Below are positions 15,175-31,204 of a stretch of 31,204 nt of DNA, piece after piece. The notes beneath the pieces are model-generated. The model was given only the letters and a program-made list of their open reading frames with translations. It had not been told where the DNA came from and did no database searches. Source of the stretch: a virus; the IMG/VR virus record IMGVR_UViG_3300037110_000037, positions 1-31,204 of that record; one strand, given 5' to 3'. Positions within the stretch are counted from its first letter, which is position 1. The number at the start of each line of letters is the position of its first letter. The position numbers and the translations under genes were made by a program.

Positions 15175-15181
15175 GAGGCAC

Positions 15182-16345: not shown

Positions 16346-16358
16346 GGTCGTGGGTAAT
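16150..16358 (+). ncRNA. Predicted omega RNA and right end of the second TnpB element
   Basis: A stem CGACCC/GGGTCG (16335-16340 with 16345-16350, loop TTTA) is extended by three more pairs, 16332-16334 with 16352-16354, around a bulge. It lies at the very end of tnpB, a place and shape typical of IS200/IS605 right ends and omega RNA 3' parts. The 5' limit is arbitrary. The guide would be the sequence just beyond, reading into the end of the CAP gene. Confidence 0.45.
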
Positions 16359-16359
16359 T

Positions 16360-16857
16360 TCACTGCCTTACCTCTGGTTTTCCGAAGACCACACACCAGT
16401 ACAGTTGGCCTCGGTTGTTGGCAACGATGGCTACTCCCACATCTTGGTAGTCTCCAAGTAGGTTTCGGCGATGGCCTTCGCTATTCATCCAATCGGTCAT
16501 CACCTCTTCGATGGTTTGTTGCCCAAAGGCGATGTTTTCAGCAACGCCCCAATACAGATAACCCTCTTTTGTCACCCGGTCAGATGGGCGGGATAGTCCT
16601 CGTCCGTAGTGACTCAAACGGTTTGTGCTTGCCATGTATTCAGCGTGGTGTTGTGCGGCTAGCGAAAGTTTTTCGTTGTAGTGGACGCTTGATAGGCCAC
16701 GGGAGTTTCTGATTTTGTTATGAGCATCTATGAGGTCTGTCGCCATCTCTTCTGTAACTGCCGTATAGAAGATTTGCGGGCAGTAATGCTTACAAATCAC
16801 ATAAGAACTCATCAACACACACAAACCCACTAATAGTGTGGCGATCAGTTTATTCAT
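16360..16857 (-). CDS. Secreted CAP/SCP-domain protein (165 aa)
   Basis: The start follows GGAGGA. Residues 1-24 are a signal peptide or anchor, with Cys13, Cys22 and Cys26 around its end. The rest is a full CAP domain: the HNKIR start, LSLAAQHHAEYM, ENIAFGQ, WMNSEGHRRNLLG and YWCVVFGKP. Two His and two Glu of the conserved cleft are present. Bacterial CAP proteins are extracellular and bind or modify surface or lipid ligands; activity is usually unknown. In a phage it may alter the host envelope or be a morphon. The second TnpB element ends 15 nt beyond its stop. Confidence 0.8.
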   Translation of the reverse strand: MNKLIATLLVGLCVLMSSYVICKHYCPQIFYTAVTEEMATDLIDAHNKIRNSRGLSSVHYNEKLSLAAQHHAEYMASTNRLSHYGRGLSRPSDRVTKEGYLYWGVAENIAFGQQTIEEVMTDWMNSEGHRRNLLGDYQDVGVAIVANNRGQLYWCVVFGKPEVRQ

Positions 16858-16902
16858 GGTCCTCCTCCAAATATCACTGATATTTAGAGGATAATATTTC
16901 TT

Positions 16903-17382
16903 TTAGTTGTTATGTTCATGCTCTATGAGGTAATTGATTGCGGATTTTAAGAATTCTTTGTTTTCCTTAAATAGGCCCAACCCTAAATTACAGCTATTAC
17001 ATAGTAATTTGCGTATTTCGTTCGTGTTATGGTTGTGGTCAACTCCTAATGTTTCGCATGGTTGTTGACAAATATAGCATAATCCATGTTGGCTATCATA
17101 CATATTTTGGAATTGTTCATTAGACAACCCGTATCGATGTTTTATTGGTTGTATTTGTTTTATGGCTGCTGAATGCGTTTCGCAATATGCCCGGCCATTT
17201 TGTTTAGCCTTACAACCGTTCCAAAGACATAGACCTTTAGCTTTTCTTTTTCTGCGGTTGTCGCTTTGATACCTCCTTTGTTTTTCCAAATGGTCTTCAC
17301 AGGAGGCTCGTCCATTTATTGCTGGCTTATCACAGAAAACACACAAGCCAGCAGCTTTTCGTAATTGATATCTTGTTGTCAT
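16903..17382 (-). CDS. HNH endonuclease of the endonuclease VII type (159 aa)
   Basis: The N-terminal half holds three small Cys-based fingers (CVFCDKPAI, CLWNGCKA, CETH) with basic linkers. The C-terminal half matches the recombination endonuclease VII fold: HRYGLSNEQFQNMYDSQHG, CYICQQPC, GVDHNHNTNEIR and LLCNSCNLGLG. His in VDHNH is the catalytic site, and two Cys pairs bind zinc. T4 gp49 resolves branched DNA, but many such proteins with extra fingers are homing endonucleases, and this layout fits the latter. A TATAAATA motif lies 16 nt before its ATG. Confidence 0.75.
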   Translation of the reverse strand: MTTRYQLRKAAGLCVFCDKPAINGRASCEDHLEKQRRYQSDNRRKRKAKGLCLWNGCKAKQNGRAYCETHSAAIKQIQPIKHRYGLSNEQFQNMYDSQHGLCYICQQPCETLGVDHNHNTNEIRKLLCNSCNLGLGLFKENKEFLKSAINYLIEHEHNN

Positions 17383-17398
17383 TTTCTATTATAGTAAA

Positions 17399-17406
17399 TA
17401 TTTATA
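17399..17406 (-). promoter_or_regulatory. T4-late-promoter-like TATAAATA
   Basis: On the reverse strand the octamer matches the T4 late promoter consensus exactly, 16 nt before the endonuclease gene start. I saw no other exact copy in the window, so chance in an AT-rich gap is possible. Confidence 0.3.
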
Positions 17407-17506
17407 CAATATTTCTTTGCGTCGGATAGGAATATTTTGTAATTTATTAAAGAATGGGCATAGATACAGTCGTTAATATAAGTGACCACCTTTATTAGGA
17501 GATAGA

Positions 17507-18223
17507 ATGACAGACAAAGTGATTTGGCCAAAAGAGCAACCCATTTATAAGTTGCTGACGCATTATGTGGGACATCATACCCATCAAGAGTTGATGGGTT
17601 CAGAGCAGTATTGCGCCATCACCCAGCAATTAGCTAGGCAAGGTGTAGTGTTGATGACGGTTGGCGTTAAGGAACCGGGGTTCGTCCCTCGGATTGAGGT
17701 GGTTGATCTTACCGACTTGGTGTATTTGCGGGAGTCTTCGGGATATAAGTCCGAGGGGGAAGACGATGGGTGGGAATCAGAAGCAGATTTTCTCAAGAGG
17801 CAGAAGCACAAGATTGATTCGGTAGAAGAGCTTGCGGCTATCTTTGGCCGTCCGCTATCGGATGTGGAACAAGAGGAGCAGCTAGCGAGGCTATCGAAGT
17901 GTTGTGAGCCTCACGAGCCTTTCGTTGTTCGTGTTAAGGATGAAGTGGATGCAATAGGAGCCCATGAGCGTATTGATAGGGCCGAGAAATTAGTACCACC
18001 ACAACCCGTTCAAGTTAAGTCGCCGCAACCCATCACCGGTGGGTTATGGGCTGCTGGAAAGTATTTTCAGGAGGCTTTTCCGGCCGCTGCCGTGAAAGCT
18101 CCACACCAGTGCTGTGGTAAGGGCACTTGTCATCCAAAGGCAGAGGTTGTTGAAGCAATCGAACCTGATTGGGTGAAGGATTTTAGAAGCATGGAAGGTG
18201 TCGAAATTGAGATTGAAGAATAA
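17507..18223 (+). CDS. Hypothetical acidic protein (238 aa)
   Basis: A good ribosome site (AGGAG) is 5 nt upstream. The product begins MTDKVIWPKEQPIYKLL. Residues 1-75 look like an alpha/beta domain; 80-130 are highly acidic. The last part includes a Cys-rich HQCCGKGTCH motif near residue 200 that could bind a metal. No known family. It is first in a forward run with the sigma-like gene (18232) and the methyltransferase (18804), spaced by 8 nt each. Confidence 0.6.
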   Translation: MTDKVIWPKEQPIYKLLTHYVGHHTHQELMGSEQYCAITQQLARQGVVLMTVGVKEPGFVPRIEVVDLTDLVYLRESSGYKSEGEDDGWESEADFLKRQKHKIDSVEELAAIFGRPLSDVEQEEQLARLSKCCEPHEPFVVRVKDEVDAIGAHERIDRAEKLVPPQPVQVKSPQPITGGLWAAGKYFQEAFPAAAVKAPHQCCGKGTCHPKAEVVEAIEPDWVKDFRSMEGVEIEIEE

Positions 18224-18231
18224 GGAGACTT

Positions 18232-18795
18232 ATGGATTATATCTTAAGTAACTTTGGTGTTACCGATGACGAATACGAGCAGATTAAGGATTTGTTTGAT
18301 GATCTGTGCCATTACGCATCATGGCAACTCATTCAGAAGAATGTAAAGAACAATCATACCGACGATCAAGAAGATATTGTACAGGAAATCCGTTGGGCCA
18401 GCATCAAAGCCGCAGCCTATTTTAAGCGTCAGGTTTATCTCGAAAGCTGCATGAATGTTGCTCGTAGTTATGTTAAAGACCCAGACGTAATTGCTGCCTT
18501 AGACAAGCTGGAGAGCTTGTGGCATAACCGCACAAAGCATGGTGCGAACAAGCAGAAGTTTGGCGAGCCGCAGGAGCAAGAGTTGGAAAGGATCATAGAT
18601 CGGTATGTGCCGGATAGTGATCGTCCTAAGAAGCGGCAACCATTGCAGTTCAATAGGAAGTTCGTCACTTACTGTAAGGCGATTATCTGGAACCGCCAGA
18701 AGAGCCTAGGTAAGAAGATCACTAAGGAGAAGGCAATCCGATCAGGCCAAGTAAGCCTCTCCGAGTATGACTATTTAAGCCAAACGAAGTTTTGA
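18232..18795 (+). CDS. Possible phage sigma factor (gp55-like, 187 aa)
   Basis: The segment about residues 28-80 (TDDQEDIVQEIRWASIKAAAYFKRQVYLE) resembles sigma-factor region 2, with the DIVQE core helix and an aromatic-rich second helix, as in phage late sigma factors related to T4 gp55. The later part is charged and helical with basic C-terminal residues, but there is no region-4 helix-turn-helix. Such factors direct host RNA polymerase to late promoters. The length is close to T4 gp55 (185 aa). The call rests on short motifs and could be wrong; a generic helical protein is the alternative. Confidence 0.5.
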   Translation: MDYILSNFGVTDDEYEQIKDLFDDLCHYASWQLIQKNVKNNHTDDQEDIVQEIRWASIKAAAYFKRQVYLESCMNVARSYVKDPDVIAALDKLESLWHNRTKHGANKQKFGEPQEQELERIIDRYVPDSDRPKKRQPLQFNRKFVTYCKAIIWNRQKSLGKKITKEKAIRSGQVSLSEYDYLSQTKF

Positions 18796-18803
18796 GGTGA
18801 TCT

Positions 18804-19370
18804 ATGAGTGGTGAGGATAATGGTAGACTCATTATTTTCTATGTAGCTCTTACCATCTCTTTGATTGGAGCGAGTCTTTTCGGTTGGCAAGCCTATGATG
18901 ACGGAGCTAAGTCACCTGTGCTTGTGCGGGATCGGATGATGATTGTGAAGAAGAATCTGAGCCACAGGACGGCGATAGCAAGAAGTAAGCCTTCGGCTCC
19001 GACGTTGTTCTTGAAGACCAATGGCGACATCAAGGGTAAGGTGCTGGATTACGGCTGTGGCCGTGGCCGTGACTGTCAATTCTTAGAATGTGATGGTTAT
19101 GATCCGCACTACCGACCTGAGATGCCGACTGGTAAGTACGATACAATTCTTTGTAATTACGTATTGAATGTTATCCCGTCCCGGAAGGTGCGTCAACAAG
19201 TCCTTGATAAGATCGAGGACTTGTTAGCACCTGATGGTTCTGCTTATATCACAGTGCGGCGAGGTAAGGGATTGAATGGTTGGACCAGCATAGGGACGTA
19301 TCAAACCCTCATTGAATTGGATTTGCCAATCCATCATCGCACAAGTGCGTATGCCATTTACAAGATATAG
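18804..19370 (+). CDS. Membrane-tethered SAM-dependent methyltransferase (188 aa)
   Basis: A GAGGTG ribosome site lies just before the ATG. Residues 8-30 are one hydrophobic segment, followed by a linker. The rest is a class I methyltransferase: motif I VLDYGCGRGRDC at about 79-90, an acidic GYDPHY strand end, CNYVLNVIP (motif IV region) and ITVRRGKG. The catalytic part alone, starting near MMIVKKNL, is a common soluble phage protein, so the N-terminal anchor looks like an added or fused piece. The substrate is unknown. The 3' end overlaps the convergent glycosyltransferase gene by 13 nt. Confidence 0.75.
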   Translation: MSGEDNGRLIIFYVALTISLIGASLFGWQAYDDGAKSPVLVRDRMMIVKKNLSHRTAIARSKPSAPTLFLKTNGDIKGKVLDYGCGRGRDCQFLECDGYDPHYRPEMPTGKYDTILCNYVLNVIPSRKVRQQVLDKIEDLLAPDGSAYITVRRGKGLNGWTSIGTYQTLIELDLPIHHRTSAYAIYKI

Positions 19371-20080
19371 GAAGGTACTATGTCGTCGGGGCCTGTCACG
19401 ACTTGCGATTGATACTTTTCAATGAACTCACGCCGCCTGATCTCCCAAGGTATAATATCCTTTGCTCCTAGATGTAGTATAAGTTCTCCCGGCTGCCAAC
19501 CTCTTAATATCTGGCCTCCATCTTTGGGGGTCATTATTGTCCAGCCAGATACCCCTTCATTTGTAACTGCGGGCCAGCCGCCTCCCACTTCCGCTGGATA
19601 CCATAACTGCACGCCAGCGAATTGGCTTTCTAAAAGGGTTTGGTTAATGACTTCCTGTTCCCAAGGATGTTCCCAAGGATCGGACATTTTGGATTTATCT
19701 TCTATCTCCTTAAAGAAGTCTACAGAGGTTTGATTAACTCTGATAACTAACAGACAAGAACATAACTGTAATCCGCCAGAACCAATGAATTCTTTACAGG
19801 CCCCCATCCAGAAGCTATCACGAAGAAGTGTGGTTGCTTCAATGTTGAAATCCATGAAGACACAGTCCATATCTGCCCAAACTAAAAAGTCGTAATCCAT
19901 AAGCAAGAACTTATTTAGCACAGAGATTTTCTCCCATGCTGGTGCCCTGTCTTTTCTCGTTTGATGCCCGCAGTAGAAATCATAGCCACGGTATCTGGCA
20001 TAATCTAATTTGTTCTTAGTGAACTCATCCGAGTATTTTGCGATCTCAGGTGATGCTATTGTAACTAAACATGTTTTCAT
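19358..20080 (-). CDS. GT34-like glycosyltransferase (240 aa)
   Basis: The protein opens with a Rossmann-like strand (MKTCLVTIASPE) and has the YRGYDFYCGH and WEKISVLNKFLL segments typical of the galactosyl/mannosyl transferase family 34. The metal- and nucleotide-sugar-binding DxD motif is DMD at residues 70-72 in VWADMDCVF. WYPAEVGGGWPAV and the LHLGAKD segment near the C-terminus follow the family order. It probably glycosylates DNA, a phage protein or a host surface component. It stands alone on the reverse strand between two forward runs. Confidence 0.8.
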   Translation of the reverse strand: MKTCLVTIASPEIAKYSDEFTKNKLDYARYRGYDFYCGHQTRKDRAPAWEKISVLNKFLLMDYDFLVWADMDCVFMDFNIEATTLLRDSFWMGACKEFIGSGGLQLCSCLLVIRVNQTSVDFFKEIEDKSKMSDPWEHPWEQEVINQTLLESQFAGVQLWYPAEVGGGWPAVTNEGVSGWTIMTPKDGGQILRGWQPGELILHLGAKDIIPWEIRRREFIEKYQSQVVTGPDDIVPSYIL

Positions 20081-20136
20081 AATGTTAAGAATTAAGGTTA
20101 GACGATCTAATAGGGGAGTAAACCAAAAGGGATATT

Positions 20137-20736
20137 ATGCTAACAGTTTATTTGCGGGATCGGCAACCTACAATGGTGTCGAATTGGGAAAAAGTGTTTG
20201 AAGGAATTGAGAACGTTTATATCTCTCAAGGGGATATTTTTGAGGGCTTTGGTATGAAGGTAGATGCTGTTGTATCCCCAGCGAACTCCTTTGGATTTAT
20301 GGATGGGGGCATTGATTACATTTACAGCCTTAAATTCGGCTGGGAGATGTCGGAAGCTTTGCGGAAGATCATTAACAAGGAGTATTACGGGGAATTGCCG
20401 GTGGGACAGGCTGTGGTAGTGGATATTCGTAAAACCAATCCAAAGACGAACATTCCATTCCTGATTAGTGCCCCAACTATGCGGGTGCCATTGGATGTCT
20501 CGCAAACAGCTAATGCTTACTTGGCTTTTAGAGCCGCCTTACGAGTGGCTGAAGATCACCCGGAGATTGAATCTATCCTGTGCCCAGGGTTGGGGACGGC
20601 CGTAGGTCAGATGCCGCACTATCGTTGCGCTCGCCAAATGTGGTCCGCCTGGAATCATCACAATCGTAAGCCAGAGGATATTGGCTATGCCGAACTTGAA
20701 CAACCATTCACTCTTCACCACTTGATGATAAGTTAG
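20137..20736 (+). CDS. Macro-domain protein (199 aa)
   Basis: A macro domain, the fold that binds ADP-ribose and related ligands. Visible: GDIFE, then AVVSPANSFGFMDGGID (ligand loop), GELPVGQAVVVDI, LISAPTMRVP, and CPGLGTAVGQMPHYRCARQM. The phage-encoded relatives often remove or sense ADP-ribose, or process ADP-ribose 1''-phosphate. It could counter NAD- or ADP-ribose-based host defence. The start (20137) has AAAGGG seven bases upstream. It precedes the replicative helicase run. Confidence 0.8.
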   Translation: MLTVYLRDRQPTMVSNWEKVFEGIENVYISQGDIFEGFGMKVDAVVSPANSFGFMDGGIDYIYSLKFGWEMSEALRKIINKEYYGELPVGQAVVVDIRKTNPKTNIPFLISAPTMRVPLDVSQTANAYLAFRAALRVAEDHPEIESILCPGLGTAVGQMPHYRCARQMWSAWNHHNRKPEDIGYAELEQPFTLHHLMIS

Positions 20737-20791
20737 TCAACTTCTGATCCCAAGAAGCCGATGAGTACGGTATCTTATATTGAGGTATCGT

Positions 20792-22264
20792 ATGGATAGA
20801 GAAATAGAAGTCCAAAATCTTATAAATCCCGACGAAGCAGAGCAGGAACATCAGTATGGCTTCACTGATGGTTTCCTGCAAAGCATCATCGGCTCGCTTC
20901 TTGTTGATAGTCATTTTCTTCTTCAGTGCATCAATCTAGTTAAGCCGGTGTATTTCAGGCACGAGGCTCACAAGATGATTTGTAAGGTCATCTTTGAGTA
21001 CCACGAGAAGTATAACGACCGGCCGAGCGTAACGGTCATTGAAGAAGAACTTACCGAACGGATTAAGGAGCCAGGAACCCTGGCTCTGTACTTGTCCGAG
21101 CTTGACGCCTGTTGTGAGTCTTTTGAGCCTGGGGTCGAGAAGCAGGAGTATTTCCTTGACAAGATCACAGAGTTTGCGAAGACACAAGCCTTGCGGGTCG
21201 CTTACACCGCCACGGTAGAAATCTTTGAGTCCAAGAGGAAAGACAAGGATAAGTGGTCCAAGATTCGTGAAATCCTCCAAGAGGCCCTATTGGTAGATCG
21301 TAATGTCGATCTGGGTCTTCCCTATCTGGATACCGTAGAAGAACGGTACAAGAGGATGATGGAGAAGAAGGGCAGGCAAGACTTCTTCCCCACAGACATC
21401 CCATCTATTGATGCGGCCCTTGAAGGCGGCTTAACCCGAGGTGAGATCGGGGCTTTTGCCGGAATGTCTAATTCCGGCAAAAGCTTGGCTCTGGTAAAGG
21501 TTGCGAAAGCTAACTTACAACGTGGCCGGAATGTCCTTTACATCTCTCTGGAAATGGATGAGGACAAGATCGCCGAGCGTTTTGACTCCATGTTAACGAC
21601 GGTTCCTATCCGGTCTCTTTACTTCGGAGAAGGTCCGAAGTTTGTTAAGGGGGCGTTGGAGGAAGGGGCTAAGGGCTGGGGGAAGATTGTTATCAAACAG
21701 TTCCCCGCTGGGGCCGCTGATGTTACGACATGTCGGGCATTCATCAACCAACTTAGTTTGCATGGATTTAAGCCAGACCTAGTTGTTGTTGACTATGTTG
21801 GCGAGATGCGAGATACGCCGGGCATCAAGACCTACGAAAGCCGTCAAAGGTTGATCCGTGATCTCCGTGGTATGGCGGTGGAGCTACAAGTCTGTGTCTG
21901 GACGGCCATGCAGATTAACCGTGGTGGCCGTGACGCTCTCAAAGAGCAGGAGTATATTGACGATGATTTGTTAGCTGACTCTGCCGGACAGAACCGTCCG
22001 TTAGACTTGCTTATAACGGTCTCGCAAACAGAAGTGGAATCTAAGGCTGGCGTGGGGACATTCTTCTTATCTAAGAACCGTAGCGGTAAGAGCAGATTTA
22101 TGGTTAAGTTTTCTCGTGATCCTGATACTTTAGAGATGAATGAAATATCCAACGAGCGTTGGAAGGTGGAGTGTTCTAAGGTTAAGGACAAAGTAGTTGA
22201 AGATGTTGTCCTGGAAGACTACGCCAAAGACACAGAGAAGTATTTTACGAGGAATAGAGCTTAG
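20792..22264 (+). CDS. DnaB-type replicative DNA helicase (T4 gp41-like)
   Basis: Hexameric 5'-3' helicase that unwinds the fork. The start at ATG 20792 is chosen for the GAGG ribosome site; a TTG lies 12 nt upstream. The N-terminal domain (residues 25-150) has the DnaB pattern IIGSLLVDSHFL. The motor has Walker A AGMSNSGKS at 223-231, ISLEMDEDKI, Walker B VVVDYVGEM (Asp334), and a later SKNRSGKSRF arginine-rich turn. At 490 aa it is full length. It begins the forward run of nucleotide, repair and restriction genes, with a 1-nt gap before the HAD phosphatase downstream. It would work with the family-A polymerase. Confidence 0.9.
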   Translation: MDREIEVQNLINPDEAEQEHQYGFTDGFLQSIIGSLLVDSHFLLQCINLVKPVYFRHEAHKMICKVIFEYHEKYNDRPSVTVIEEELTERIKEPGTLALYLSELDACCESFEPGVEKQEYFLDKITEFAKTQALRVAYTATVEIFESKRKDKDKWSKIREILQEALLVDRNVDLGLPYLDTVEERYKRMMEKKGRQDFFPTDIPSIDAALEGGLTRGEIGAFAGMSNSGKSLALVKVAKANLQRGRNVLYISLEMDEDKIAERFDSMLTTVPIRSLYFGEGPKFVKGALEEGAKGWGKIVIKQFPAGAADVTTCRAFINQLSLHGFKPDLVVVDYVGEMRDTPGIKTYESRQRLIRDLRGMAVELQVCVWTAMQINRGGRDALKEQEYIDDDLLADSAGQNRPLDLLITVSQTEVESKAGVGTFFLSKNRSGKSRFMVKFSRDPDTLEMNEISNERWKVECSKVKDKVVEDVVLEDYAKDTEKYFTRNRA

Positions 22265-22265
22265 T

Positions 22266-22583
22266 ATGTATAAAGTAGGTTGTGATATAGATGGGGTTCT
22301 CACCACAGGGTTCAGACCACCAGAAGATGATTACGTGATAATCTCAGGGAGGCTAGTGTCGGAATGGGCTAAGACTGTTGAAGAATTAGGAATCGGACAT
22401 CCGATATACTTGCGGCCATTCGGCGAGCATAACGACCCTTATTGCGCTGGGTCTTGGAAGGCTGGCATTATCTCTCATCTTGGGCTGAAGGTCTTTTATG
22501 AAGATGAAGAAATACAAGCTGAGATGATCCGGGATTTGAATCCAGATTGTGAAGTAATAATGATCGGAGGTAAGAATGAGTAA
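22266..22583 (+). CDS. Small HAD-fold phosphatase-like protein (105 aa)
   Basis: The start ATG 22266 is chosen; the frame continues upstream inside the helicase gene but has no site there. The DxD motif of HAD hydrolases is CDIDGVLT near residues 6-12, where the first Asp is the nucleophile. The rest is a small cap-less core: strands (PIYLRPFG, LKVFYED) and PDCEVIMIGG at the end. The length is short for an active HAD enzyme, so the activity may be simple or absent. The relatives dephosphorylate nucleotides. The last 8 nt overlap the next gene. Confidence 0.65.
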   Translation: MYKVGCDIDGVLTTGFRPPEDDYVIISGRLVSEWAKTVEELGIGHPIYLRPFGEHNDPYCAGSWKAGIISHLGLKVFYEDEEIQAEMIRDLNPDCEVIMIGGKNE

Positions 22584-22836
22584 GGCAGAATTTGAAGTTA
22601 AGACCTTAGAGCATAAAGGCGAAAAACTACAGGTCATTGTGGAGAAGACCAATGACGTTGAACGCCTTGATCGGATTGTTTTTAATGTGTTGGAGCGGAA
22701 GCAAATTGACGCTGGGCTTGATTACGTTGAGAAAGTTTGGATGTTATCACGTTTGCTATCTGCCCAATTATGTGCCATGTGGTTCCATGAAGATGTAGAG
22801 AAAGAGTTGCAACGTTACGAGGAGAAGAGACAATGA
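22576..22836 (+). CDS. Hypothetical small helical protein (86 aa)
   Basis: Unrecognised. Residues 1-35 have two short strands (AEFEVKTL, LQVIVEK). The remaining two-thirds is helical with a regular charged-hydrophobic pattern and ends with a basic tail. No motif of catalysis or binding is seen. It sits between two HAD-type genes with short overlaps on both sides (8 nt and 4 nt), so it is translated with them. Confidence 0.55.
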   Translation: MSKAEFEVKTLEHKGEKLQVIVEKTNDVERLDRIVFNVLERKQIDAGLDYVEKVWMLSRLLSAQLCAMWFHEDVEKELQRYEEKRQ

Positions 22837-23441
22837 AGAAAACAATAGCACTTGACGTAGACGGCACATTAGCCTTCTACAACGGATGGAAGGGGCTAGA
22901 TCACTTCGGTGATCCAATCCCTGGGGCCGTGGAGTTCACAAAGCAGCTTGCTAAGTATTACGACATCGTGATTTTCACTTGTCGTTGCACTCCTGACCTT
23001 CATAGGCTTTCTGCCAATTTGTTGGAAAATAAGGTAAAGGCATGGTTAGACGAGCATGGGTTTGTGTATCATCACATTTACTCAAGTCCAGGCAAGCCAT
23101 ATGCCGATGTGTACATTGATGACAGAGCGGTGTCGTGTCGCCCGCAAGACCACATAAAGGGCTTGGAATACCGGGAATATGATTCGGTTTTGAAAACCGT
23201 TGTAGCTTTATCACCCCCTCAAATTCCGATGGGATTTGATTTGAAGATCGAAAGCACAGAAGTTAAACCCAAACCCAGGGTTGCGATTTGCACATGTATT
23301 GTGCCGCAGTTTGAAGATACGGGTCCGTGCAAGCGATGTGGGAAGCCAATGACGTTTGATTACGAGGTGTCCCACGATTTGCCGGTAGTCCACAATTTTG
23401 ATCCTCGTGAATTATTGTATCAAAGGAAAGACTTATCATGA
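22833..23441 (+). CDS. HAD hydrolase with C-terminal zinc-ribbon-like part (202 aa)
   Basis: The HAD signature is LDVDGTLAFYNGW at residues 7-19 (nucleophile Asp8, acid Asp10). Motif II is IVIFTCR, and motif III/IV is YADVYIDDRAV with paired Asp. This set resembles phage 5'-nucleotidase or polynucleotide-kinase-type phosphatases. After residue 150 there is an added piece with CTC and CKRCGKP that may bind zinc. In this location a role in nucleotide scavenging or end repair is likely. Overlaps its neighbours by ATGA-type contacts. Confidence 0.75.
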   Translation: MKKTIALDVDGTLAFYNGWKGLDHFGDPIPGAVEFTKQLAKYYDIVIFTCRCTPDLHRLSANLLENKVKAWLDEHGFVYHHIYSSPGKPYADVYIDDRAVSCRPQDHIKGLEYREYDSVLKTVVALSPPQIPMGFDLKIESTEVKPKPRVAICTCIVPQFEDTGPCKRCGKPMTFDYEVSHDLPVVHNFDPRELLYQRKDLS

Positions 23442-23938
23442 AAGTAAAAGTAGGCGATCAGGAAGTGGTGCTTGATCCTAAGCACTTAGAAGTTAGCGAA
23501 GTCAGTATGAACGACTTCCTCAAGAACTTCGCAGCATTGTACAGTTACTACAACGCAATGTGGGCCAAGTCCCAATTCATTCAACATCTTACCGAGGATA
23601 AGTACGATCAGGTCGCTAGCGAGCGTTTCCAGCACTACAAGGAAAGCGAGGGCGGGAGTGATAAGCTAGTAGAGGCCAAGGTAACGGTAAGTGAGAAAGT
23701 TATCGCAGCCCGCCGAGCGGCCCGTGAAGCAAAGTATATCTGCCAGTTGCTATTCACATATCTTCGGGCGTTGGACAAGGCTCATGAAAACGCTTTGAAC
23801 CTTGGTTACAACATCCGTAAGGAGATTGACAAGATTTACCCGCAACACATTCACGGCGAGGCGGACGGCCTGGATAAGGATGGTCTGCCCCACGATGTTG
23901 ATAAGCAAGTCGAGAAGTTGGTAGAGGGAGAGCTATGA
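23438..23938 (+). CDS. Possible UvsY-like recombination mediator (166 aa)
   Basis: An all-helical protein. The order LYSYYN..., a charged helix with FQHYKESEGG, EAKVTVSEKV, and LLFTYLRALDKAHENALNLGYNIRKEID resembles T4 UvsY, which loads recombinase onto ssDNA covered with gp32. The match is to the spacing and a few positions only and was judged by eye. No UvsX recombinase is visible in this window. An acidic end (GLPHDVDKQVEKL) is not typical. If not UvsY, it is a helical phage protein of unknown role in a run of DNA genes. Confidence 0.4.
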   Translation: MKVKVGDQEVVLDPKHLEVSEVSMNDFLKNFAALYSYYNAMWAKSQFIQHLTEDKYDQVASERFQHYKESEGGSDKLVEAKVTVSEKVIAARRAAREAKYICQLLFTYLRALDKAHENALNLGYNIRKEIDKIYPQHIHGEADGLDKDGLPHDVDKQVEKLVEGEL

Positions 23939-24591
23939 TTGATCCGATCAATATGACCGAGTACGATGCCTCAGTCAATCGGTTAGAGGAGATCGCTCTA
24001 TTCTCCGTGCTTGTAGCAGCAAGTAATGCCATCGCAACCGCCAATGGATTAGATAGGTTCTTAAAGGGCCTGGGTTGGGGGACTTGGACATTCGGGCCGT
24101 TCATGACGATTAGGTTATGGTGCGGGAAGCCTAACAAGAGATCAATGGGTATGATGGCTGCCCAATTGAAACGGGCGGGCATCGGTAAGTTCACTAAGAA
24201 GGGGCGAGCAGTTGTCGAACTTGCGTTTAGCGGGCTCGATCTCAAAACATGCACTGTCAAAGACTTGGAGAAGATATACAACATCGGTCGTAAGACTTCG
24301 AGATTCTTTATTCTCCACACACGACCAGACGCAGAGGTCGCCGCAGTAGACACTCATGTGTTGCACTTTCTAAGGGATCATGGGCATAAGGTGCCTAAGT
24401 CATCGCCCGGCAGCGATAAGAAATATGACGAGCTTGCGGCGTTGTTTATAGGTTATGCGAAGAAGTCTGGTAAGTCCTTTGCCGACTTCGACTTAGAGGT
24501 ATGGAACCATTACTCAGGACATAAGAGACGTAGAGATGAAAAAGTGCAGAAGTTACGAAAAGTATCAGGGCAAGGTAGCTCCGAAGTGTAA
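23935..24591 (+). CDS. HhH-GPD DNA glycosylase, endonuclease III-like (218 aa)
   Basis: A base-excision-repair glycosylase/lyase. The helix-hairpin-helix is LEKIYNIGRKTSRFFILH at residues 111-128 with a Lys in the position of the catalytic lysine (GRKT, Lys120). The catalytic aspartate is in VAAVDTHVLHFL (Asp139). These match the Lys120/Asp138 pair of E. coli Nth. The C-terminus lacks the four Cys of the iron-sulfur cluster. The substrate (oxidised pyrimidine or other) is not determined. It overlaps the next gene by 56 nt. Confidence 0.75.
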   Translation: MIDPINMTEYDASVNRLEEIALFSVLVAASNAIATANGLDRFLKGLGWGTWTFGPFMTIRLWCGKPNKRSMGMMAAQLKRAGIGKFTKKGRAVVELAFSGLDLKTCTVKDLEKIYNIGRKTSRFFILHTRPDAEVAAVDTHVLHFLRDHGHKVPKSSPGSDKKYDELAALFIGYAKKSGKSFADFDLEVWNHYSGHKRRRDEKVQKLRKVSGQGSSEV

Positions 24592-24841
24592 CAAGGGGGA
24601 TGGGTGTGAAGCCTGTTGGGAACGATTCAGGTCACGTTGCTCGCATCCTTTGAAAGACCTCACGTTAATTGAGAAGAAGAACGAGTTTGGGGACACCTTT
24701 GTTTCTAGGAGTTACATTTTGCATTGCGGGCGTTGTTTGTCCCGTGTGCAGAATTGGGACAACAACATATTGTTCCTGTGGAAGAAGCTGTTTGAATTGA
24801 AGAGTAGTGTGACGACGCACACATACTCTGGAAAGAAATAA
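24536..24841 (+). CDS. Cys-rich small protein (101 aa)
   Basis: Starts inside the end of the glycosylase gene. It has Cys at CRSYEKY, CNKGDGCEACW, CSHPL and HCGRCLS, a spacing that would bind one or two zinc ions. No homologue is recognised. Basic and aromatic residues around the Cys suggest nucleic-acid binding, but this is not shown. About 19 nt separate it from the EcoRV-like gene. Confidence 0.5.
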   Translation: MKKCRSYEKYQGKVAPKCNKGDGCEACWERFRSRCSHPLKDLTLIEKKNEFGDTFVSRSYILHCGRCLSRVQNWDNNILFLWKKLFELKSSVTTHTYSGKK

Positions 24842-24859
24842 ATGTTTAGAGGATAAGAA

Positions 24860-25591
24860 ATGCGAAAACGCAGAACGGATTTGGTAAATGCGACAATGTT
24901 AGAACTAAGAGATTTGGTACGACAAATTCAGTTTGAGGAGGCATTGCGAGACTTTGGTAATCATGAATTAGGCATCTGGTATCGGTTACCGAGAGATACT
25001 AAGGTGATATCCAAACTGATCGAATCGCTGATTGACCCTGTTATAGAGAAGTTTGCAAAGAAATACAAGCTTAAGTTGCACTTCGGTCCACAAACCAAAT
25101 ACCCAGACTACTCGCTCTCTGGTGAGGCTATCGGCGTAAGTGGGGATGACTTTATCGCAATAGACGCTAAATCTAGCTATTTTGTTGATGCGATGAATAT
25201 TCGGGGGATGACTCTAGGCACCTATCAAGGAGGGTTAAGGAGTCCTAATACAACTCGGTACACGGTTTTGCCGTATAGGTGTTACAAGCAGCATTTATGT
25301 CTATCTGTGTTGTACGAGCGGCCAGCGAAATCAGATTCGAGAGCCGTATCTAATATAGAAGTGAACTTGCATCACAAGTATCAAATAGCAAGTGATAAGG
25401 TGGGGAGTGGTAACACAAAGAATATCGGTAGCGTTACAGATATTCTTCAACTGCGGGCGGGGACCGGTCCCTTCTCGTCGCTAGGGCAAAAGTGGTTCGA
25501 GGAATATTGGCGTAGTTATCCAAACCATCGCAGCATTGAGGATTACGCCCTCTCGAAGCGTCCTGGCAATATCTTACAATTAGCCGCATGA
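24860..25591 (+). CDS. EcoRV-like type II restriction endonuclease (243 aa)
   Basis: A type II restriction enzyme of the PD-(D/E)XK fold, close to EcoRV (245 aa). The catalytic set is YPDYSL with Asp83 and AIDAKSSY with Asp102 and Lys104, matching EcoRV Asp74, Asp90 and Lys92. The DNA recognition loop of EcoRV (GSGNTTNIGS) is nearly unchanged: VGSGNTKNIGS at 181-191. The GGLRSPNTT region corresponds to the Q-loop part. This predicts cleavage of GATATC with blunt ends. The gene has a GAGGA ribosome site and overlaps the methyltransferase by ATGA, as in a modification-restriction pair. Activity in the phage could destroy host or rival DNA. Confidence 0.85.
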   Translation: MRKRRTDLVNATMLELRDLVRQIQFEEALRDFGNHELGIWYRLPRDTKVISKLIESLIDPVIEKFAKKYKLKLHFGPQTKYPDYSLSGEAIGVSGDDFIAIDAKSSYFVDAMNIRGMTLGTYQGGLRSPNTTRYTVLPYRCYKQHLCLSVLYERPAKSDSRAVSNIEVNLHHKYQIASDKVGSGNTKNIGSVTDILQLRAGTGPFSSLGQKWFEEYWRSYPNHRSIEDYALSKRPGNILQLAA

Positions 25592-26247
25592 TTTTACAAA
25601 TGGTATTAAGAGATTTCAAAGAAGCACAGAAGGCGATAGGGTTTCATCAGTATCAAGAAGGAAGTAGTAGGCCAAAGGGCGACTTCTATGCCACACCAGC
25701 GCAGGCGGTCCACGGGCTTTTGTCGAAGGAAATCTTTGGCGAGACGATCCTAGAGCCATGTTGCGGGAATGGGGCGATTTCAAAGTTATTAGAAGCCCAT
25801 GAAGCTATTCTATCACAGGAATGGTTAGGCGGAGAGCTTGTCTCCCAAACTACTCGTAAATACAACGTCATCTCTCGTGACCTTTATGATTGGGGCTATG
25901 GTGAAACGGGAAAGGACTTCCTCACGGAACCGGTATCGGACGTGGACGCCGTTGTAACCAACCCACCTTTCAATCTTAGTATGGAATTTACCATTCGAGG
26001 CTTGGAATGCACAAAGGCGAAGAATGGTAAGGTGGCGATCTTAAATCGTATTGCTTGGCTGGAAAGTGCCAAGCGCAAGAAGTTATTCGAGGCAAATCCT
26101 CTGGCGACCGTTTGGATATTCTCTAAGCGGCTACCCAGGTTCAATAGGTTTGATTTTACGGGCAAGTCCAGCACGAGCTTAATTGGATTTGCATGGTATG
26201 TTTTTGATTGGACCCATGAGGGGCCACCAATATTAGGATGGATTTAA
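25588..26247 (+). CDS. DNA adenine-N6 methyltransferase-like protein (219 aa)
   Basis: A class I DNA methyltransferase. Motif I is ILEPCCGNGAIS (54-65), motif IV is TNPPF (124-128), preceded by an N-terminal GDFYATP segment as in phage N6-adenine methyltransferases. The LNRIAWLESAKR and FSKRLPRFNRF segments carry the target-base region. It sits between two nuclease genes and overlaps the EcoRV-like gene by 4 nt. It probably protects phage DNA from one or both nucleases. EcoRV methyltransferase is of the alpha (Dam-like) group, while this one has a gamma-like order, so the pairing is plausible but not certain. Confidence 0.75.
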   Translation: MILQMVLRDFKEAQKAIGFHQYQEGSSRPKGDFYATPAQAVHGLLSKEIFGETILEPCCGNGAISKLLEAHEAILSQEWLGGELVSQTTRKYNVISRDLYDWGYGETGKDFLTEPVSDVDAVVTNPPFNLSMEFTIRGLECTKAKNGKVAILNRIAWLESAKRKKLFEANPLATVWIFSKRLPRFNRFDFTGKSSTSLIGFAWYVFDWTHEGPPILGWI

Positions 26248-26248
26248 G

Positions 26249-27055
26249 ATGTTAGATTTTTGTCAAGCATTAGAAGAAGTTGCCTCGGAAGTAGAAGCCC
26301 AGAAGCCAGTGGAAGTTGTTCCTGGGAAGCCTTATCATTCTATGAAGGAGTTATTTGCCGACGTAGAGTTTGCGACCTATATGCGAACCCTTTGGCCCCT
26401 ATTCGCACAAACTGCTAACAACCTATGCTTACAGAACGGCAAGCTAGGTCAAGAGTGCGGTAAGATGCGTGAGCGGTTCTTGATCTACCTATTCGCTCGC
26501 TTCCTTGGCGAGGATGCGGAACGTTGCTATGTCGATGACTATTCTGTAGATGTTGTTGAGCGTGGCAAAGACGTTATTGTATTCGGCAGAGACGTTTCCA
26601 TCAAAACCATCAGCTTCGGCGGCAATAGCTTCAATCAACTGAAGATCAGTTGGATCGAGAACGAGAAGATGGCTAGCGAGGTGCAAGCCACCTGGAAGCC
26701 GGAGTTTGACCTTCTCCTGTGCCGTCTCCGATGGGGGTCCGACCAGGAAGGGCTTTACTACATCAGCAAGGAAGTCCAGGAAGCCGTAATGCTAGGTGAA
26801 GGGAGTCACTTGAAGACTTCTGGTGGGTATGGGAAGGGGACTTCGCTAACATCAGAGACGTGCGAAGCCCTCATTAACCATCCAGACACATTAAAGCTTG
26901 CGATTGCAATGCCGAAAGAGAACAGGGACGAGAATGTATTGAACCAATATTTGGATTGGCTGTATCTGAAAACATGGGCCGAAAAAGACAGGGAATGGGA
27001 CTCGGACGACGAGTGGATGGACGAGTTCAATAAGGCAATGAGAGAACTAGAGTAA
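26249..27055 (+). CDS. ThaI-like restriction endonuclease-like protein (268 aa)
   Basis: The central part (100-240) follows the layout of the ThaI restriction endonuclease family: DVSIKTIS (115-122), a helix with LKISWIENEKMAS, PEFDLLLCRLRWGS, GLYYISKEVQEAVM, and a GKGTS loop. The ThaI family cuts CGCG. The (D/E)xK pattern is VSIKT, with Asp101 or Asp115 as acid; this is not a textbook match. The first 90 residues are helical and the tail is acidic (WDSDDEWMDEF). It follows the methyltransferase by one base, so the three genes appear as one cassette with two different nucleases. Confidence 0.5.
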   Translation: MLDFCQALEEVASEVEAQKPVEVVPGKPYHSMKELFADVEFATYMRTLWPLFAQTANNLCLQNGKLGQECGKMRERFLIYLFARFLGEDAERCYVDDYSVDVVERGKDVIVFGRDVSIKTISFGGNSFNQLKISWIENEKMASEVQATWKPEFDLLLCRLRWGSDQEGLYYISKEVQEAVMLGEGSHLKTSGGYGKGTSLTSETCEALINHPDTLKLAIAMPKENRDENVLNQYLDWLYLKTWAEKDREWDSDDEWMDEFNKAMRELE

Positions 27056-27165
27056 AACTAGACGGTTCTTAATATATAATACAACTGGTGAGTTTAGGCC
27101 ACCGAAGAAGCCGGTACGGGTAAAACAGGTATATCCCGACCACAAACCAAAAAGGAGAAGTAGAT
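27056..27165 (+). promoter_or_regulatory. Promoter and long 5' leader of the Hsp20 gene
   Basis: TATAAT at 27075-27080 is a good -10. The transcript would have an ~80-nt leader with a weak CGGG/CCCG hairpin near 27115-27145, then AAAGGAG before the start. A thermosensor role is possible but there is no clear match to ROSE or fourU types. Confidence 0.5.
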
Positions 27166-27651
27166 ATGAATTCACTTATACCTTCAAGAGAAGCATTTTT
27201 TGCTCCCATTAACGAAGAGTTTAACAGACTTTTCGACAGACTTTTTTCAACTGACAGTCTTCAATCTGTTCGATCTAAGATTCGTTCTGGATACCCGAAA
27301 ATGGATTTGATTGAGACCACAACGGAATTTGTGGTAGAGGTAGAACTGCCGGGGGTCAACGAGGAAGATTTGACTTGTGAAATCTTACCGCCCAATGACG
27401 CTACGGCAGGCAGAAAGGTACTTAGACTTAACGGCAAGAAAGATTACAACTATCAATACCCCGAAGGAACTTCGTGGCACGTCAAGGAGTTGAGACGATC
27501 TCAATTTACTAGGGAAGTAGTACTTCCTGAAAACGTTGAGGACAGCCCCGAGGCCACGTATGACCGAGGGATACTAAGGTTAGTATTCAACAAGAAGGAA
27601 GCGGATAAGAAGCTAGAAGCTAAGCTTATCCCAATCGTTAAGAAGGCGTAA
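27166..27651 (+). CDS. Small heat-shock protein Hsp20 (161 aa)
   Basis: An alpha-crystallin-domain chaperone. The domain (about 40-150) has the MDLIETTTEFVVEVELPGV start, the GKKDYNYQ loop and the FTREVVLPENVE...ATYDRGILRL segment with the GILRL-type hallmark. The N-terminal arm (residues 1-40) has a FFAPINEEFNRLF aromatic part. It holds non-native proteins in oligomers, without ATP. Hsp20 is known in large T4-like phages and may help virion or host-protein folding. It has its own promoter, ribosome site and terminator. Confidence 0.9.
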   Translation: MNSLIPSREAFFAPINEEFNRLFDRLFSTDSLQSVRSKIRSGYPKMDLIETTTEFVVEVELPGVNEEDLTCEILPPNDATAGRKVLRLNGKKDYNYQYPEGTSWHVKELRRSQFTREVVLPENVEDSPEATYDRGILRLVFNKKEADKKLEAKLIPIVKKA

Positions 27652-27686
27652 AGCCTAAAAAATCCTGTAGCCTAAACAACTAGTCG

Positions 27687-27723
27687 AAAGCCGCAAAGAG
27701 ATGTTATCTTTGCGGCTTTCTTT
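27687..27723 (+). terminator. Rho-independent terminator of Hsp20
   Basis: A perfect 12-bp stem (27687-27698 with 27708-27719) with a 9-nt loop and the T-rich tail CTTT. It lies about 35 nt after the Hsp20 stop. Confidence 0.8.
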
Positions 27724-27724
27724 G

Positions 27725-27735
27725 TATATATGGGT
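27725..27735 (+). promoter_or_regulatory. TATATA box just before a leader-gene start
   Basis: TATATA (27725-27730) is 5 nt from the ATG at 27736, directly after a terminator. No ribosome site is seen. A promoter upstream of 27725 would overlap the terminator, so a leaderless start is plausible. Confidence 0.35.
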
Positions 27736-28182
27736 ATGAGATTCCCACGTTTCAAAGTATGGTTCGAGGCGGTACAAGGTCAACTTCAACAGCAGTTAAT
27801 GGCAATCCGACCGCAGTTAGCGGCAGCGGCCCAGCAAGTCTACGATGCCTGGGACCAGGACGAAGAAGGAATGGACGATGAATATGGCGGCGGTGGAATA
27901 TGCCATGACATCGCTGACGCTCTTGTGAATGTCGTTGATAGATTGATTCCGCAAGTTGAGGCCGCAACCATCCCGTGGTCTGGATCGGGCGAAGTGCATG
28001 TTTATAGTGTTGCCATCTTAGGGGAAGAAGCTTGTGAGGTAGATATACACCCTAGTACATACGAAACTGGCGGTGGTTACACATGGAAAAAAATCCCTAA
28101 TGTCCAATTTGACGCAAGCGACATCATTATTTATCCAATTAGTGTGGAGCAAGCGAGAGAGATATTGGAATACGACGGGTGA
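27736..28182 (+). CDS. Leader-bearing cysteine-protease-like protein (148 aa)
   Basis: The start at 27736 is preferred over 27730 because the sequence then opens MRFPRFKVWFEA, the shared leader. Residues 16-55 are Gln-rich and acidic. The domain has Cys57 in GGICHDIADAL, His89 in EVHVYSV and Asp103 in EVDIHPS: the Cys-His-Asp order of transglutaminase/papain-like folds. The interrupted protein at 6936 shows the same Cys-His-Asp set, so they are paralogues. It may be a cysteine peptidase, deamidase or similar hydrolase, packaged and injected if the leader works like the T4 capsid signal. This is inference. Confidence 0.65.
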   Translation: MRFPRFKVWFEAVQGQLQQQLMAIRPQLAAAAQQVYDAWDQDEEGMDDEYGGGGICHDIADALVNVVDRLIPQVEAATIPWSGSGEVHVYSVAILGEEACEVDIHPSTYETGGGYTWKKIPNVQFDASDIIIYPISVEQAREILEYDG

Positions 28183-28197
28183 TAGCTCATTTATTGC

Positions 28198-28818
28198 ATG
28201 GAGCTTCATTCGATAGTAGATGCGGTACACGTAGGTTTGGGTAAAGGGTTCGTCAATGTTCAATCATTGATGGCTCGGCTTCCGTACGTAACACCTACGG
28301 TGACTAATAAAGCTTTCTACACCGATCCTCGGTACTACCCGACATATTTTCACCTAGGCCGCAGCCTGAAGCCAAGGTCATTACTTTCTATGAGTCTCGG
28401 CGGCGGCTTATCAACAGCCTGTTTCTTGCTGGGAGATTCCGAGGCTCGGGATGTCTTAGCTTATCAACGGCCAATAGATGGGTACTACTCGCCACGCATG
28501 GCGAAGCACAATATAAGACAAGCTTACAAAAAGACGCTGGACGTATTTGTTGGGGACGCACTAAGTCAAGAGTTTCAAAATAAGCTAAGGGCAGACTCTT
28601 GGGAGGCTGTCATAATAGACGAAGAGTGTAAGTATGACGACTATCTTAGTCTTTTGCGAACGGTGTGGCCGCATATCTCGGAGAATGGTGTGATTGTTTT
28701 AGATCGGATTAACTATCATAAACCAGCGGGCCGTGCGTGCAAAGATTTTTGTAATGAGATCAACAGAAACTCGGCGTTCATTCACAGCAAATACGGGGTA
28801 GGTTTAATAGGGAAGTAG
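28198..28818 (+). CDS. Methyltransferase-fold-like protein (206 aa)
   Basis: The protein has a Rossmann-like order: LLSMSLGGGLSTACFLL as the motif I region, VFVGDALSQEF, WEAVIIDEECKYDDYLSLLRTVW, and ENGVIVLDRIN. The order and the WxAVIIDxxxxYDxxxxxLxxxWPHI segment resemble small class I methyltransferases (methyltransferase_24 type). The glycine motif is loose (SLGGGLST), so cofactor binding is uncertain. No clear ribosome site precedes the ATG. It ends 5 nt before the GIY-YIG gene. Confidence 0.5.
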   Translation: MELHSIVDAVHVGLGKGFVNVQSLMARLPYVTPTVTNKAFYTDPRYYPTYFHLGRSLKPRSLLSMSLGGGLSTACFLLGDSEARDVLAYQRPIDGYYSPRMAKHNIRQAYKKTLDVFVGDALSQEFQNKLRADSWEAVIIDEECKYDDYLSLLRTVWPHISENGVIVLDRINYHKPAGRACKDFCNEINRNSAFIHSKYGVGLIGK

Positions 28819-28823
28819 GCAAT

Positions 28824-29546
28824 ATGGGAAATCAAGGAGTTTATGCCATTAGGCATACCCATAGCGGCATGAACTACGTTGGCAGTTCGATGAATCTACA
28901 CCGTAGGAGAACCCAACACTTTGTTGATCTAAGGGGTTCTAGGCATTGTAATGTGCATCTTCAGAGGGCGTTTGATAAGTATAGCGAGGACGCCTTTGAG
29001 TGGATCGTGTTAGAGGAAGTTACCGATGCTGAAAATTTAATCGAGAGAGAACGGTTCTGGATCAATGAGTTGTCGGCTACAAATAAAGGTAATGGTTATA
29101 ACATAGCTCTTGACCCGATTGCTCCAATGCGGGGAAGGCGGTTTTCGAGTAAGACGAAGGCTAAGTTAAGTGATTTAAGAAAAGGTTCTCTACACCCGAG
29201 GGCTAAGATTAACGAATCAGATGTATTAAAGATTTGTGATATGCACAAACAAGGGAAATCTCAATGTGAAATATCTAATCTAGTTGGTGTAGATCAAACA
29301 AATGTAAGTCTGATACTACGTGATAAAGCATGGCGGCACGTTATCTCTGAGAGGAACCTACAAGCGGTTGCTACAAATAACACATCCGGTTGTACTGGTG
29401 TTTATTATGCAAGAAATGTTGGAAAATGGGTCGCTGAGATCATTAAAAATGGGGTCCACTATAGGCTGGGGACGTTCGTTGATCTTCAAGAGGCTATAAA
29501 AGCTCGTAAAGAAGCAGAGTGGAGGCTATCATCGGATACGAAATAA
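28824..29546 (+). CDS. GIY-YIG homing endonuclease with AP2-like domain (240 aa)
   Basis: The nuclease domain (residues 3-95) has GVYAIRHTHSGMNYVGSS with its GIY-YIG-type strands, a catalytic Arg near NLHRRRTQH, and Glu in ENLIERERFWI. Then a NUMOD-like segment (SSKTKAKLSDLRKG), a helix-turn-helix (INESDVLKICDMHKQGKS) and a C-terminal AP2-type DNA-binding domain (TSGCTGVYYARNVGKWVAEI). This is the classic layout of a phage homing endonuclease. It ends by overlapping the following gene by 28 nt. No intron or split gene is visible near it. Confidence 0.85.
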   Translation: MGNQGVYAIRHTHSGMNYVGSSMNLHRRRTQHFVDLRGSRHCNVHLQRAFDKYSEDAFEWIVLEEVTDAENLIERERFWINELSATNKGNGYNIALDPIAPMRGRRFSSKTKAKLSDLRKGSLHPRAKINESDVLKICDMHKQGKSQCEISNLVGVDQTNVSLILRDKAWRHVISERNLQAVATNNTSGCTGVYYARNVGKWVAEIIKNGVHYRLGTFVDLQEAIKARKEAEWRLSSDTK

Positions 29547-30664
29547 CAATCAATTTCTACGAAAAGAAGTCAGACGCCGAGGAATTCAATAAAGAAGAGT
29601 CGGAGTTAAAGACGAAAGTAATTAAGATCGGAGCCCCCGATGATGCGGTTCCTTTACAGAAGGTAGCCGCAACCATAATTCGGTCTTATACGGATCGTGA
29701 TAAATGGGTGGAGTCGGTGAGTGTAGAGGAGTGGACGAAGAAACCGCTGAAATGTGTTCAAACAAAGAATGGCGTCAAAATTGCCAACCAAGCATTCAAT
29801 CTTGGTTTGAATGAAATCATGAAATTGGCAGTAGACGACAGGCCCACACATCAGCAGCAACCGCAGCCTCAGTACGCTCCGCAACCGCAATACCAGCAAC
29901 CGCAGCCTCAGTATGCTCCGCAACCACAATACCAGCAGCCGCAGCCGCAGTATGTCCCACAGCCACAATACCAGCAGCAAGGCCCACAACTTATCCTGCC
30001 GCAGAGTGTTACCCAGCGTCAGGCCCCGATGCCCATGAACGAGCAAGTTCATACGGGTGAAATGGGAGCCCCGGTCATCACCTCGGCAGATCGTGATTTC
30101 CAGACGGGTATGCAACAGGGCACATATGCCTCTACTCCCGCACAAGCTCACCCTGGTTACGACTACCGTGAGGGCGAGCGAATTGTTAGACAACAGCCTA
30201 AGAAGTCTATGGCTGGATTGCAATATGGACAGCGTATAGAAGTGTGTGATCCGCCCCCAGAGTTAAGGAATGATGTACGAGGCTTGAATTTGACCATTGG
30301 TAAGAGATACCAAGTTATCTCTGAACAACTAGCTCCGAACGGTAGCGACTATGTGTATAAGATCGTAGACGATACCGGGAGGGAAAAGCTGGTCGGCTGG
30401 CATTACTTTCGCCAACCCCAAGCAGTCCGGCAGGAGGAGTCTTATTATGACCCTCGTTCGGGCCAGCTTTTCACGGCTGCACGTTATGTTGACCAAGCTG
30501 CTATGGAGTCCCGAGAATATGAGTCTCGCCCTCGATTGCTTTACGAAGGAGGCTCCGAGCCCCCAATGTACAGAAACGTTGCCTCCTCCTCCGCCGACCC
30601 AAACATGAATGGGATGTTGTCAAGAATGGATCAAGCAGTAAGACGTAGAACAGGTACAAGATGA
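29519..30664 (+). CDS. Q/P/Y-rich repeat protein, likely virion or scaffold (381 aa)
   Basis: The first start is GTG at 29519, inside the GIY-YIG gene; no ribosome site is clear, so the true start may differ. The N-terminal 100 residues are an alpha/beta domain. Residues 113-160 are a QPQYAPQPQYQQ repeat with three copies of a 13-residue unit. The C-terminal part (from about 235) has a small KRYQVISEQLAPNG-like SH3-style strand set (GQRIEVCDPPPE, YKIVDDTGREKLVGW). The end is basic (MDQAVRRRTGTR). A binding or structural role is likely. It overlaps the next gene by ATGA. Confidence 0.55.
   Translation: MEAIIGYEITINFYEKKSDAEEFNKEESELKTKVIKIGAPDDAVPLQKVAATIIRSYTDRDKWVESVSVEEWTKKPLKCVQTKNGVKIANQAFNLGLNEIMKLAVDDRPTHQQQPQPQYAPQPQYQQPQPQYAPQPQYQQPQPQYVPQPQYQQQGPQLILPQSVTQRQAPMPMNEQVHTGEMGAPVITSADRDFQTGMQQGTYASTPAQAHPGYDYREGERIVRQQPKKSMAGLQYGQRIEVCDPPPELRNDVRGLNLTIGKRYQVISEQLAPNGSDYVYKIVDDTGREKLVGWHYFRQPQAVRQEESYYDPRSGQLFTAARYVDQAAMESREYESRPRLLYEGGSEPPMYRNVASSSADPNMNGMLSRMDQAVRRRTGTR
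29864..29980 (+). repeat. Three tandem 39-nt coding repeats
   Basis: Copies at 29864-29902, 29903-29941 and 29942-29980. Each encodes a QPQYAPQPQYQQP-like unit of 13 residues. Synonymous changes between copies show they have diverged under coding constraint. Such repeats expand and contract by slippage. Confidence 0.85.
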
Positions 30665-31204
30665 CAAAGAAGAAACTCCAAGAACGTAAAGAGAAGAAGC
30701 GTAAGGAAAAGGCCAAGGCTACGGTTGAGGCCCGTCGTAAGAAGCTCCAAGAGATGCGGAAGGAAGCTAATGAAACTGCTAAGTTTCAGAAGCACTTTGG
30801 TCTTAAGGTGGCTCCATACCGCCGTGCGGCCGACCCAGCCTTATTGGAACCGGAACCAGCTATGACCAAGCAAACTAAGGTAGATGATCCAAGGAAGGTG
30901 GAATATATCAAAAAGAAGCTTGAACACAATATGGAGATTCTGAAAGCGTTGGAAGAGGAGTTCCAACGGGAGCAAGAGGAACGTGAAAAGAACCAAAAGG
31001 CTTTAGAGGCAGAGGGGGCTTTTACTATGCGTGAAAAGCTAGATTTAATTGCCAAGAAGACCGAAGATAGGATTGCCACGGGCGACCTATCATCCAGCGA
31101 AGAGCTTACATCCATGCCCTATGACGAGCACTTTTTTGATGGTGCGGTAGAGGCTTATATGGAGCCATATTCGCCTCTACCGCACCATCAAAAAAGTGCT
31201 CGTC
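30661..31204 (+). CDS. Lys/Glu-rich coiled-coil protein, 3' end missing
   Basis: The gene starts at ATG 30661, overlapping the repeat gene by ATGA. It begins MTKKKLQERKEKKRKEKAK, very basic, then a coiled-coil-like Lys/Glu/Arg-rich region to about residue 125. It is open to the end of the window (181 codons). From 31123 onward the frame lies inside a palindrome, so the last part may not be the true sequence. It may be a scaffold, a DNA-binding or a structural protein. No family is recognised. Confidence 0.5.
   Translation, partial: MTKKKLQERKEKKRKEKAKATVEARRKKLQEMRKEANETAKFQKHFGLKVAPYRRAADPALLEPEPAMTKQTKVDDPRKVEYIKKKLEHNMEILKALEEEFQREQEEREKNQKALEAEGAFTMREKLDLIAKKTEDRIATGDLSSSEELTSMPYDEHFFDGAVEAYMEPYSPLPHHQKSAR
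31123..31204. repeat. 82-bp near-perfect palindrome at the window end
   Basis: The arms 31123-31154 and 31173-31204 are exact inverted copies (32 bp). The centre adds six more pairs (31157-31162 with 31165-31170) around a 2-nt loop, with two mismatches. It ends exactly at the last base. A fold-back assembly or amplification artefact is the first explanation; a real hairpin is the second. Confidence 0.9.

Follow-up and report, generated by a model that had tools for sequence, protein, structure and literature searches.

ThaI-like restriction endonuclease genes and missing CGCG sites in a lineage of large phages

A type II nuclease encoded without its methylase would be expected to destroy its own genome, and type II enzymes have been reviewed as rarely occurring on phages (PMC4081073). 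The virus record analysed here is a genome fragment of 31,204 bases, spanned in full by the stretch under study (hereafter the window), and it bears two type II restriction endonuclease genes around a single DNA methyltransferase gene. How does such a phage escape its own enzymes, and what might they be for? The features on which the argument rests are as follows.

23935..24591, + strand: gene resembling a phage HhH DNA glycosylase (phrog_11575), a conserved neighbour by phrog match and synteny
24536..24841, + strand: 101-aa gene immediately upstream of the cassette, a homologue of which directly precedes ThaI in the related contig G002
24860..25591, + strand: EcoRV-family type II restriction endonuclease, 243 aa (PF09233, PDB, family alignments, AlphaFold)
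25588..26247, + strand: DNA methyltransferase of the PHROG 799 family, 219 aa (EPCCGNG and NPPF motifs)
26249..27055, + strand: ThaI-family restriction endonuclease, 268 aa (PF15514, 3ndh, relatives L002 and L003, synteny)
25006..25011, no strand: GATATC, the EcoRV site, within the EcoRV-like gene and one of only 2 in the window
17367..17372, no strand: second GATATC of the window, from the site count
1..31204, no strand: CGCG, the ThaI site, wholly missing (0 against 54 expected, Markov model)

The three reading frames of the cassette were found where they had been predicted, with a 4-nt overlap between the first two and a 1-nt gap before the third, and they probably form an operon. PADLOC called the first and third as type II restriction enzymes, and the family matches given below lie far outside what chance would produce. 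Other genes observed in the window include an HSP20-type small heat shock gene (27166-27651), which is kept beside the nucleases in the ThaI relatives, two genes for TnpB-like RNA-guided endonucleases (NF040570; 15182-16345 on the + strand and 7122-8291 on the - strand), and a GIY-YIG homing endonuclease gene (28824-29546) with C-terminal matches to AP2-like and HNH-family proteins.

The gene order of the window (helicase, small gene, HhH glycosylase-like gene, methyltransferase-24-like gene and others) is common to IMG/VR contigs of 28.7, 92.1 and 150.8 kb and to LR756511.1, an uncultured phage of 595,163 bases, which places the window in a clade of large phages. Nearest to it are the contigs G001 and G002, both of which have a ThaI gene at the same place. 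The EcoRV-like gene and the methyltransferase gene sit between two genes that in G002 stand side by side, so that the pair looks like a recent insertion and the EcoRV-like gene like a recent arrival.

Resemblance of the third gene to the ThaI family had been proposed from the letters alone, and the profile searches agreed (Pfam ThaI, PF15514, E 8.9e-23, 81.6 bits against a cut-off of 25; ThaI structure 3ndh, E 3.3e-18). Residues E75, D108 and S117-I118-K119 (the SIK motif) are invariant with ThaI and are predicted, on the strength of the motif, to be catalytic. Two relatives have orthologues in the corresponding position, 64% and 61% identical, with dN of about 0.33 and dS saturated. A structure prediction made from only three sequences was unusable (pLDDT 43.6).

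In cells, an SPPY methylase adjoins ThaI in 27 of 34 loci, and nine of these ThaI-linked methylases are at least 54% identical to each other. No homologue of them was found in the window or in G002. The methylase beside ThaI in G001 was considered as a retained partner and rejected, being only 23-28% identical to the ThaI-linked enzymes and about 50% identical to phage orphan methylases. It follows that all three phages appear to carry ThaI without its partner. Compared with the ThaI (3ndh) restriction-modification system, the window gene thus has the same nuclease family and conserved core residues but stands without an SPPY methylase, in a genome from which CGCG has been fully erased.

The first gene is a member of the EcoRV family (Pfam Endonuc-EcoRV, PF09233, E 1.5e-37, 129.8 bits against a cut-off of 25; PDB EcoRV structures, E 3.6e-15), and its AlphaFold model is a confident fold (pLDDT 85.5). 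The catalytic triad noted earlier, D83/D102/K104 (D74/D90/K92 in EcoRV), and the recognition loop GSGNT-x-NIGS, here GSGNTKNIGS, are both kept in family alignments. The middle gene is likewise the DNA methyltransferase it was taken for (phrog_799, E 5.8e-52, with EPCCGNG and NPPF both there), and its family is present in 488 sequenced phage records. It gave no match at E <= 1 to MethyltransfD12 (PF02086), the class from which EcoRV enzymes draw their partners, and it is not similar to the SPPY methylases found with ThaI in cells. Plasmid homologues do carry the adenine methylase partner. The window gene shares its nuclease family, catalytic triad and DNA-reading loop with the EcoRV system, but differs in being phage-borne, in adjoining a PHROG 799 methylase and not a D12 adenine methylase, and in that GATATC is partly purged from the window. 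Viral sequences were also scanned with the EcoRV-like protein and the middle methylase as single queries, and neither scan gave a match.

The original prediction was of a complete restriction-modification set. Two type II nuclease genes and a methyltransferase gene in a probable operon are indeed there; a complete self-protecting set is not supported, as the methylase is of the wrong class for either nuclease and there is no CGCG to protect.

The key observation on the ThaI-like gene concerns CGCG. The word was counted 0 times against 54 expected in the window, 69 in G001 and 196 in G002 (92 kb), and is found nowhere in the 152 kb of these three diverged contigs, which make up one lineage and in effect one event of loss. 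In none of the three carriers does any other 4- or 5-mer fall to 10% of expectation or less, and the 12 words that differ from CGCG by one letter lie at 0.87-1.43 of expectation. When synonymous codons of the coding sequences were permuted, with proteins and codon usage retained, 47 ± 6 CGCG appeared in the window, 55 ± 6 in G001 and 171 ± 11 in G002; the minimum in 100 shuffles was 33, 42 and 144, respectively, so that zero was never approached. The nearest syntenic phages without ThaI keep the word, with 265 of 378 expected in G005 (IMGVR_UViG_3300042453_005121, 151 kb; ThaI absent by profile search) and 735 of 1087 in LR756511 (ThaI absent on reading the homologous slot). Cellular ThaI loci with an adjacent methylase are near expectation (975 of 1148), and no case of zero CGCG occurred among 61 background loci of unrelated phages with enough expected sites. 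As far as these sequences go, complete erasure is confined to the phage carriers, and it looks like the outcome of strong, continuing selection. Since the phage has no CGCG, the ThaI-like enzyme would need no protective methylation.

Other words are also scarce in the window: GCGC stands at 16 of 60 expected and several 6-mers, for example TGATCA, AGATCT and CGATCG, at 0 each, which is probably due to avoidance of host restriction.

For the EcoRV-like gene the window itself is less clear-cut. Its two GATATC sites compare with about 8 expected, a depletion relative to its relatives with p about 0.02. Other viruses provide a wider comparison. Searching viral contigs with an alignment brought up 35 EcoRV-family loci. 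The 8 contigs without a D12 methylase have 0 GATATC against 226.7 expected, compared with 99 against 138 in the 11 with one, although contigs are often fragments and a methylase may lie outside them. The lone group includes contigs of 66, 457 and 517 kb, the two largest sampled over 240 and 200 kb, and Halovirus HGTV-1 (KC292026.1; 0 against 30 expected). GATATC ranks as the most depleted among 60 hexamers in G042 (0/107) and among 54 in G009 (0/21); G042 and G043 are tailed phages. The ThaI relatives, which do not have EcoRV, hold 66 of 67 expected sites and three other phages with no EcoRV gene 158 of 190. Among representatives, the site has been lost in 6 of 6 lone cases and 1 of 10 paired ones (Fisher p 0.0009), and the lone representatives also differ from background loci (p 5e-5). 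One D12-bearing contig, G013, is purged as well (1/26). On the EcoRV tree the lone genes do not form one group, the best tree requiring 5 changes and well-supported branches forcing at least 2; in a pairwise phylogenetic test the starred pairs were too few for significance. Judged from these sequences, the EcoRV viruses repeat, independently of ThaI, a split between lone genes with erased sites and paired genes with retained ones.

Gene 181 of HGTV-1 encodes, like that of the window, an EcoRV-like nuclease, here in a tailed virus and with no adjacent methylase. It differs in being already annotated in its record and in that the virus avoids nearly all restriction sites (GATC 0/576, CTAG 0/214, AGCT 3/408 and CCAGG 0), which makes its signal less specific; the use of HGTV-1 alone as proof of the EcoRV rule was dropped for that reason. 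The contig of locus L193 (IMGVR_UViG_3300021979_000001), from a huge phage with a lone EcoRV gene, also bears a PHROG 799 methylase gene far away; GTAC is missing from that 20-kb stretch.

Site loss is not restricted to genomes with a recognised nuclease. G002, G042, G043, HGTV-1 and LR756511 each erase about 20-29 palindromic 6-mers, and such broad avoidance weakens single cases in the first four. LR756511 has no CCGG in all of its 595,163 bases, when about 799 would be expected in 450 kb. Searches of LR756511 for the HpaII and MspI families gave no match, the MspI control itself having matched nowhere, and ten PD-(D/E)xK candidates from it gave TnsA-like and PDDEXK_1 matches and no restriction family. 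LR756511 therefore suggests that restriction by hosts can by itself strip a 4-mer from a whole genome. In G005, TCGA is reduced to 152 against 634 expected, and a search of that contig for the TaqI family found no match.

These genomes lend some weight to a host-driven explanation, in which CGCG disappeared from the phages as an escape from host systems that cut it, and one such host supplied the ThaI-like gene, which played no part in the loss. Phages are well known to avoid the restriction sites of their hosts (PMC6286503), and the many 6-mers erased by the relatives, with the CCGG of LR756511, fit this explanation. It is nonetheless unlikely. Both the ThaI phages and, again, the viruses with a solo EcoRV have lost the very word that their nuclease would be expected to cut; paired EcoRV carriers do not have the pattern, and the site of each nuclease is kept in relatives that do not carry it. 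In a host with its own CGCG already methylated, moreover, a phage ThaI would serve no purpose.

Less probable again is a working restriction-modification cassette of the kind first proposed, with the middle methylase shielding phage DNA from either nuclease or from both. The close packing of the three genes would suit it, and the two leftover GATATC sites, one of them inside the EcoRV-like gene itself, would need protection if that enzyme is active. Against it, besides the class of the methylase and the wide occurrence of its family in phages, is the case of G042, where a PHROG 799 methylase gene lies at a great distance from that for EcoRV and yet not one of 107 expected GATATC is present; CGCG needs no protection at all. 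That the nuclease genes are decaying, inactive relics is very improbable. The reading frames and active sites are intact, the ThaI orthologues remain about 60% identical with the dN and dS values given above, and full erasure of a site points to selection that continues.

The reading preferred here, to which we assign a probability of roughly 0.75, is that the ThaI-like enzyme is a lone type II nuclease fixed in this lineage, that the phage is immune to it through erasure of CGCG, and that the EcoRV-like gene and the methylase are a later insertion. We infer the activity, exact site, target and timing of the nuclease as follows. The ThaI-like enzyme would cut unmethylated CGCG in the infected cell, whether in the host chromosome, in plasmids or in rival phages, and phage DNA would be invisible to it, every CGCG having been removed and not methylated. 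Immunity of this kind would require neither a methylase nor timing. The EcoRV-like gene and the PHROG 799 methylase would have been inserted later, just upstream of ThaI and into the same operon, in the window's phage only. There the purge of GATATC would still be incomplete (2 of about 8), and it is possible that the methylase protects the two remaining sites.

That the nucleases cut host or rival DNA is plausible. A variant compatible with the preferred reading restricts the target to rival phages and plasmids, to the exclusion of the host chromosome (superinfection exclusion). Action on rivals has been proposed for giant-virus restriction-modification systems, where host DNA is not degraded (PMC7253447). 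This variant may be entertained tentatively, as nothing in the present data separates the two targets and host DNA would be equally unprotected unless the host methylates the sites.

Endonucleases II and IV of phage T4 degrade host DNA and spare that of the phage. They resemble the enzymes proposed here in being phage nucleases directed against host DNA, but T4 marks itself by modified cytosine and not by a missing site. Chlorovirus type II enzymes, also virus-encoded, are said to help degrade host DNA (cited in PMC7253447); chloroviruses differ in being eukaryotic viruses protected by their own methylases. Haloarchaeal tailed viruses purge or methylate motifs to escape their hosts, and some encode restriction-modification pairs (PMC8651126). 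Purging is there, as here, an alternative to methylation, but it was attributed to host enzymes and not to a lone nuclease encoded by the virus. Lone restriction enzymes in cells have already been surveyed (PMC3488263). In the open-access full-text literature searched, no report was found that ties lone viral type II enzymes to the erasure of their own sites.

Taken more widely, we lean towards a general viral strategy in which type II nucleases are acquired without their methylases by large phages and archaeal viruses, which become immune by erasing all of the sites from genomes of up to half a megabase, the lone enzymes serving as weapons of takeover or exclusion. Absence of the site would seem to be a third route to distinguishing self from non-self, beside methylation and base modification. 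The finding would qualify the reviewed statement on the rarity of type II enzymes on phages (PMC4081073), and it predicts phage tools for the destruction of host DNA. A missing word would also be an independent readout of nuclease specificity; if the strategy is indeed general, a 4-mer that a genome lacks altogether, as the 595-kb LR756511 lacks CCGG, could reveal the specificity of a phage nuclease that is as yet unrecognised.
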